From positions 1-28,248 of the IMG/VR virus record IMGVR_UViG_3300009080_000050: a DNA stretch of 28,248 nt; one strand, given 5' to 3'. A model generated the notes under the pieces. That model saw only the letters and a list, made by a program, of their open reading frames with translations, was not told where the DNA came from and ran no database searches. Made by a program: the position numbers and the translations under genes. Shown here one piece after another: positions 18,171-18,855 of the stretch; positions within the stretch are counted from its first letter, which is position 1; each line of letters starts with the position of its first letter. This stretch comes from a virus.

Positions 18171-18855
18171 ATGGATAAAGATGCGGATCGACCTAATGGA
18201 AGACCCGGCAGTTATGCAGATGGCCGACAAACTCGACATCCGAGAGGAGGCAGTGGTTGGATATTGTCACGCTTTGTGGTCTTGGGTGTCACGCCAATGT
18301 CACGCTGACAGCGTGACAGGTGTCACGCTCGTGTCACTAGGGCGTCGCATCAACCTGCCGGGTTTCCCCGAACTCATGTGTGACGTGGGTTGGTTGGAGT
18401 ACGACGACAGTGGCGAACTGCCAGTGATCCGCATTCCCAACTTCGATCGGCATTTATCACAAAGTGCCAAAAAGCGGGCAAATTCCGCACTTAGGCAGTC
18501 AAAACGTCGCGCATCTGTCACGCAGCCGTCACGCACCGAGCGTGACACAAGCGTGACCAGAGAAGAGAAGAGAAGAGAAGAGAAGAATATACACACACAC
18601 ACACAGCAAGCGATCGGTTTTGAAGATCAATGGCAGCAGTGGGTGGACTACCGGTTTCAGGACACCGGCAAGCGAATGGGGGGTGTCCAGCAAGAAGCGA
18701 CGCTGATGGAACTCACCAGACGCGGGCCAGACAAAGCCAAGCGAGACATCGCGTTCAGCATCCTGAAGGAAGCCAGAAGCATCTTGGACAGCGACAACGA
18801 CTTTTCCAAGCGGAACGGAACCAAGGCACAACCAGCGGAGGCACTGGACCTATGA
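18160..18855 (+). CDS. Replication-initiator-like protein carrying the origin
   Basis: The 231-residue product begins MSGEWIKMRIDLMEDPAVMQ, followed by REEAVVGYCHALWSWVSRQ, VGWLEYDDSG and PVIRIPNFDRHLSQSAKKRA. This is the pattern of phage proteins annotated as replication initiation or DnaD-like (winged-helix N-terminal part, K/R-rich linker). The linker is encoded by repetitive DNA (TREEKRREEKNIHTHTQ). The coding sequence contains nine GTCACGC/GCGTGAC motifs, so the origin probably lies inside the gene as in lambda O. It would bind the iterons and recruit the helicase. The start overlaps the previous gene by 11 bases. Confidence 0.65.
   Translation: MSGEWIKMRIDLMEDPAVMQMADKLDIREEAVVGYCHALWSWVSRQCHADSVTGVTLVSLGRRINLPGFPELMCDVGWLEYDDSGELPVIRIPNFDRHLSQSAKKRANSALRQSKRRASVTQPSRTERDTSVTREEKRREEKNIHTHTQQAIGFEDQWQQWVDYRFQDTGKRMGGVQQEATLMELTRRGPDKAKRDIAFSILKEARSILDSDNDFSKRNGTKAQPAEALDL
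18266..18605. other. Probable replication origin: GTCACGC iterons plus purine and AC tracts
   Basis: GTCACGC occurs at 18266, 18288, 18299, 18322, 18517 and 18528, and inverted (GCGTGAC) at 18311, 18540 and 18551, with a partial GTCACT at 18333. Inside each cluster neighbours are 11 bases apart, or 12 where the orientation switches. The second cluster is followed by five tandem AGAAG (18561-18585), AATAT and an AC repeat (18591-18605), suitable as a strand-opening region. The layout matches origins placed inside initiator genes. Confidence 0.7.

Follow-up and report, generated by a model that had tools for sequence, protein, structure and literature searches.

The gene at positions 18160-18855 (plus strand) of the window, by which we mean the whole stretch of 28,248 nucleotides that was analysed (virus record IMGVR_UViG_3300009080_000050), most probably encodes a phage replication initiator and holds an inferred origin of replication within its own coding sequence, in which a variable DNA word matched to one helix of the protein lies next to a constant opening element. 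We assign this reading a probability of roughly 85%. The words and their phasing, the constraint at silent sites, the concerted switching of the words, their association with the helix and the fixed position of a purine tract were computed directly; binding, strand opening, helicase loading and origin activity are inferred. A preliminary description of this DNA had already placed an origin inside the initiator gene, and as an inference this is supported by the membership of the gene in family phrog_2509 and by the recurrence of the array, its phasing and the purine/AT-rich element in most relatives. A literature search covering few subscription journals returned no report of origins in the phrog_2509 family, and in that literature we found no binding or replication data for this phage or the family. 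The GC skew does not switch at the initiator gene.

The gene is one uninterrupted reading frame of 231 codons (231 aa). The preliminary description called it replication-initiator-like, and the profile search agrees: the best match is phrog_2509 'replication initiation protein' (E 7.3e-41, residues 1-151), and over the same residues the protein shows ∼40% identity to that of phage epsilon15, which is annotated as a replication initiation protein. In the AlphaFold2 model (mean pLDDT 84.7) an N-terminal winged-helix-like domain (residues ∼11-98) is followed by a basic helix (101-121), a low-confidence linker (pLDDT of only 51-59 for residues 121-150) and a C-terminal helical part (∼155-202). The Pfam search assigned the protein to no family and did not detect the DnaT domain PF17948, and the C-terminal part has no meaningful family match. 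In several relatives this domain is found at the C-terminus (epsilon15: E 1.4e-12, L019: 5.4e-11, L270: 2.2e-11), and a putative role in primosome assembly fits these domains, although the window protein lacks a match of this kind. A sequence profile search of the PDB gave no useful match. In Foldseek/VIA the N-terminal domain matched winged helices only weakly, with no Z above 7 and with AspA among the matches; those starting at residue 1 (4pql, 4pt7 and 5kbj, Z 5.5-5.8) are three among many winged helices. Since the genes near the initiator encode a RecT-like annealing protein, an SSB, a RusA-like resolvase and an integrase, the window is probably a temperate phage with its early replication region.

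Two further features of this locus were observed. Two copies of the junction sequence GCACTGGACCTATGAGAGACGAGCAAGC, at 18839-18870 and 19041-19074, flank a small Cys-rich ORF (MRDEQAENVCRRLCDKCKQ...), a layout that looks like the insertion of a small zinc-ribbon-like gene whose ends were duplicated. An initiator gene 97% identical to that of the window is present in the MAG of bacterium TMED88 (L093), which may indicate the host, but a phage contig that strayed into the bin is also possible.

By direct counting, GTCACGC or its complement GCGTGAC occurs nine times without mismatch inside the coding sequence, as had been described; five of the copies fall within 18266-18328 and the other four within 18517-18557. 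In cluster 1 (18266-18339) the exact copies start at 18266, 18288, 18299 and 18322 on the plus strand and at 18311 on the minus strand, and a degenerate copy GTCACTA follows at 18333 (plus). Cluster 2 (18506-18557) begins with a degenerate GTCGCGC at 18506 (plus) and continues with exact copies at 18517 and 18528 (plus) and at 18540 and 18551 (minus). Both degenerate copies are in phase with the exact ones. The preliminary description had given steps of 11 bp, or 12 bp where the orientation flips, and the same layout for both clusters. The 11-bp steps and the 12 bp at plus-to-minus flips hold, but the first step from 18266 to 18288 is a gap of 22 bp, with one 11-bp place empty, and the minus-to-plus flip from 18311 to 18322 takes 11 bp. 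Likewise the orientations of the exact copies (+ + + - + in cluster 1 and + + - - in cluster 2) make the layouts similar, not identical. Across the whole 28-kb window there are 18 copies of GTCACGC, compared to a mean of 7.85 and a maximum of 14 in dinucleotide shuffles, and the remaining nine outside the initiator gene correspond to the background level.

Repeats in a coding sequence can be a by-product of protein repeats or codon bias without any role at the DNA level, and the encoded protein does contain recurrent V-T and H-A pairs as well as the repetitive peptide REEKRREEK. Shuffles of synonymous codons keep the protein sequence and the codon usage fixed. In 20,000 trials GTCACGC occurred 2.58 times on average and at most 7 times, compared to the 9 copies observed, and in 2,000 such shuffles the best count of any 7-mer was at most 7. 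The word starts at codon positions 1, 2 and 3 and lies on both strands. Amino-acid repeats do not account for the words, which across the relatives are spaced by 11, 12, 22 or, for inverted pairs, 13 bp; 11 is not a multiple of 3. The preliminary description had named conservation of GTCACGC at synonymous positions in related phages as a check, and this is what we observed. In relative L004, 83% identical to the window protein over 146 aligned N-terminal columns, none of the 13 fourfold-degenerate sites inside words differ from the window, compared to 27 of the 55 outside; over all sites 3 of 63 differ inside and 76 of 357 outside. The corresponding fourfold counts are 1/13 and 29/55 for L005, and 0/13 and 10/55 for the near-identical L093. 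On the shuffles and the spacing we rejected the protein-repeat or codon artefact, to which we give practically no credence.

One base past the last iteron a polypurine tract begins (18559-18587, plus strand), which we propose as the opening or strand-capture element. It contains a tandem AGAGA repeat at 18559-18586 with period 5, 5.6 copies and 100% matches, and is followed at 18588-18605 (plus) by a short AT-rich start (TAT) and an AC repeat (18591-18605). The period-5 and AC repeats after the motifs, which had been reported beforehand, are thus both present.

From scans of IMG/VR and GTDB genomes we obtained 320 related genes, of which 169 remained once near copies had been removed. In 136 of the 169 the longest purine run reaches at least 16, and in 103 it lies above synonymous shuffles at the 5% level. 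Measured from where the last 6-mer starts, the tract begins 7-8 bases on in 81 of 120 genes and one turn later (18-19 bases) in another 26; its period-5 self-match is 0.92 (136 genes), and it is common to different word classes. Over the 10 bases that follow the tract, the AT content in the family is 68%, compared to 43% for the gene, and for the element next to the iterons it is moderate (0.59-0.68).

Across these 169 non-redundant relatives the layout of the words is kept, whereas the word itself is not. The top 6-mer of each gene has 6.4 copies on average, compared to 3.6 in synonymous shuffles, and an over-represented word was detected at p ≤ 0.01 in 124 of the 169; about a quarter of the relatives have no clear word. 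Words were called from a fixed list that was picked after the data had been seen. Counting genes with at least 5 copies, the most frequent words are GTCCGC (44), GTAACG (43) and GTCACG (25), and GTAGAC, TGTCCC, GTTACG and others also occur. Spacings between words on the same strand peak at 11 (174), 22 (48) and 12 bp (47), and inverted pairs peak at 13 bp (199). In one relative (L044) ∼12 copies of GTCACG are bunched after the helix in an unusually large array.

We split each gene at the basic helix and compared the words before and after it. The word was identical on both sides in 322 of 327 family genes, with the clusters ∼200 bp apart, and at least 17 word changes were placed on the tree of the N-terminal domain. 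Within the clade of L041 the word is GTTACG, GTCACG, GTAACG or GTCCCG, each present in both clusters. As 6-9 scattered copies are unlikely to reach the same new word by drift, we infer selection for one word per phage. According to the preliminary description, relatives that keep the protein and lose the motifs would refute the origin. L007, epsilon15 and many others do meet this to the letter, but their copies have been jointly swapped for a different word with the spacing preserved, and the swaps track residues of the basic helix, so the origin reading is strengthened.

The codons of this helix, the proposed recognition helix, occupy 18460-18522 (plus) and run straight into cluster 2. Its pattern AK.RA....R....R has near-invariant K/R in the family. 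When codons lying mostly within iterons are set aside, the words are separated best by a few residues that include 113, 109 and 116; these three lie on one helix face (spacing 4 and 3), and in the window they are S109, Q113 and R116. Residue 113 differs in 90% of the pairs with different words, compared to 27% of the pairs with the same word. Among close relatives in several lineages it follows base 3 of the word: K or Q with C, V with A and M with T. For the closest pairs with different words we found M113 with GTTACG and K113 with GTCACG (78-86% identity over residues 1-100), K with GTCACG and V with GTAACG (70-75%), M with GTTGCG and V with GTAACG (67-73%) and K with GTCCGC and V with GTAACG (66-68%). 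From the triple 109/113/116 the word was predicted correctly for 36 of 41 held-out proteins (88%), compared to 32 of 41 (78%) for the nearest neighbour on residues 1-100, and 3 of the 5 misses of the triple involved words absent from the training set; families are shared between the held-out and the training proteins.

Several observations limit what can be drawn from this association. We rejected a strict one-residue code at position 113: GTAACG occurs with Q, T or A (usually together with H116), GTAGAC with Q, and GTGACG with M113 in L368, and the triple performs better. A link between Asn113 and base G is not claimed either, as it was seen in one gene only (L149) and L368 combines GTGACG with M113. 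Balanced accuracy was also high for single columns 48 and 51, the latter mostly and the former partly encoded by iterons, and since some other i, i+4, i+7 triples reach a balanced accuracy similar to that of 109/113/116, the helix does not stand out by this test on held-out proteins alone. Shared ancestry accounts for part of the association, both word and helix being inherited, and a formal test on independent pairs had no power with only 2 pairs on well-supported branches. Because of the exceptions, and because ancestry inflates such associations, the data suggest a helix-word code as a strong lead, not proof, with both code and binding inferred from sequence comparison.

Since the helix codons adjoin cluster 2, and this in turn the constant purine tract, specificity could be exchanged as one cassette. 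Positions 346-798 of L099 look like an apparent specificity recombinant: N-terminal domain and cluster 1 resemble L068 (GTCACG), helix (M113) and cluster 2 resemble L041 (GTTACG). This is a MAG contig, and an assembly chimera is possible. Taken as a whole, a lock and key in one gene, in which 109/113/116 spell the word, 113 reads base 3, recombination exchanges the cassette and the phages fall into compatibility types, is an idea towards which we lean only slightly.

The mechanism that we propose for the origin would be as follows. The initiator would bind the 7-bp words (GTCACGC here) in two clusters, and the spacing of one helical turn would align the protomers on one face of the DNA. The bound array would then open the adjacent period-5 purine tract and the short AT-rich stretch, after which the C-terminal part, which in several relatives is a DnaT domain, might help to load the replicative helicase. 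The basic helix 101-121 beside the winged-helix domain would read the word at least in part, by means of residues 109, 113 and 116. With a change of specificity the helix and all iterons would shift together and the opening element would stay constant.

Other functions of the array have to be considered. The words could form an autoregulatory operator, through which the protein blocks its own transcription, with the origin located elsewhere. Self-binding inside its own gene would likewise let words and helix covary, and the upstream cluster falls within the first third of the coding sequence. However, two clusters deep in the coding sequence, a constant purine/AT-rich element at fixed spacing and DnaT domains in relatives fit an origin better; we consider an operator alone quite unlikely, and the two roles can coexist. 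Even less probable, in our view, is a partition (centromere) or packaging site bound by the winged-helix protein. The family is annotated as replication initiator and has DnaT domains in some members, the epsilon15 member lies in the early region near the repressor, and the integrase in the window argues against a plasmid-like prophage, even though tandem phased words and a winged-helix-like domain are also seen with centromere-binding proteins and AspA is a weak fold match.

It also remains conceivable, if unlikely, that another phage or host protein binds the words and that the encoded initiator acts only downstream. There are no binding data against this, and the helix codons adjoin cluster 2, so that the association could be mere linkage. 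Word changes are nevertheless accompanied by changes at 113, 109 and 116 in several lineages, above most other N-domain positions not encoded by words, and the helix is basic with near-invariant K/R. An origin bound by the encoded initiator remains our preferred reading.

The plan resembles that of phage lambda, as the preliminary description had noted; the parallel stands as a plan, without a sequence or fold comparison to lambda O. In lambda and Stx phages the origin lies in the middle of the initiator gene O, where an AT-rich element comes after the iterons (PMC7466680), and the opened AT-rich region of lambda has almost all purines in one strand (PMC5043065). The window gene shares the iteron array within the initiator coding sequence and a strand-asymmetric element beside it, here a polypurine tract and then an AT-rich stretch at fixed spacing. 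It differs in its 7-bp words, 11-bp steps, two clusters and period-5 AGAGA tract; the iterons number 4 in lambda and 6 in Stx phages and hardly differ between these phages. Within phrog_2509, Salmonella phage epsilon15 has its own word GTCCGC (8 copies) and the same AGAGAAG tract; unlike in the window, its cluster 1 lies further upstream in the gene and the protein has the C-terminal DnaT domain. No origin is among the annotated features in the stretch of the epsilon15 record examined. In the E. coli K-12 Rac gene ydaU (L333, 7120-7977; DUF1376) we observed a repeated TGTTCAA, with two copies 33 bp apart (3 × 11), an indication that another initiator family may have an intragenic array of this kind. 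Rac oriJ was unusable as an experimental anchor: ydaU belongs to DUF1376 and has its own repeats, and the record has no annotated origin.

RepA_N plasmid initiators such as that of pSK41 bind boxes central in the rep gene through an N-terminal winged HTH, the protein part encoded by the ori is a linker, and the C-terminal part contacts a host protein (PMC5703833); in the RepA of PLE satellites the RepA_N domain and the origin covary and are swapped (PMC8263062). PLE iterons, as described there, are semi-palindromes of ∼30 bp, unlike the 7-bp words of the window, and the available text of these accounts does not mention an additional basic helix or a purine tract, both of which are present here. 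Pfam found no RepA_N domain (PF06970) in the window protein, and no family named RepA_N was matched among 81 relatives. For the RepA_N winged-HTH fold the structural evidence consists of the weak matches at Z 5.5-5.8, which stand beside matches to many other winged helices. In geminivirus Rep, N-terminal amino-acid variation correlates with iteron sequence in >100 viruses (PMC10653810), but this is a rolling-circle system with an unrelated mechanism and intergenic iterons. Initiator-origin covariation is already known from PLE RepA and geminivirus Rep. As far as the literature found shows, what is new is the inferred origin in this large phage family with many words in one fixed frame, together with the helix-word association and the shared purine element.

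To our knowledge, the origins of most temperate phages are unknown. A word of its own in two clusters, 11-bp phasing and an AGAGA tract would make it possible to recognise origins in the sequences of hundreds of phages and prophages from Proteobacteria, Planctomycetes and Verrucomicrobia. Should the link between helix and word be true, the family would be a natural set of matched initiator-origin pairs, in which a change of DNA recognition could be studied with both partners functional in one reading frame, and it would give a simple prediction of which phage replicons cross-act or interfere.
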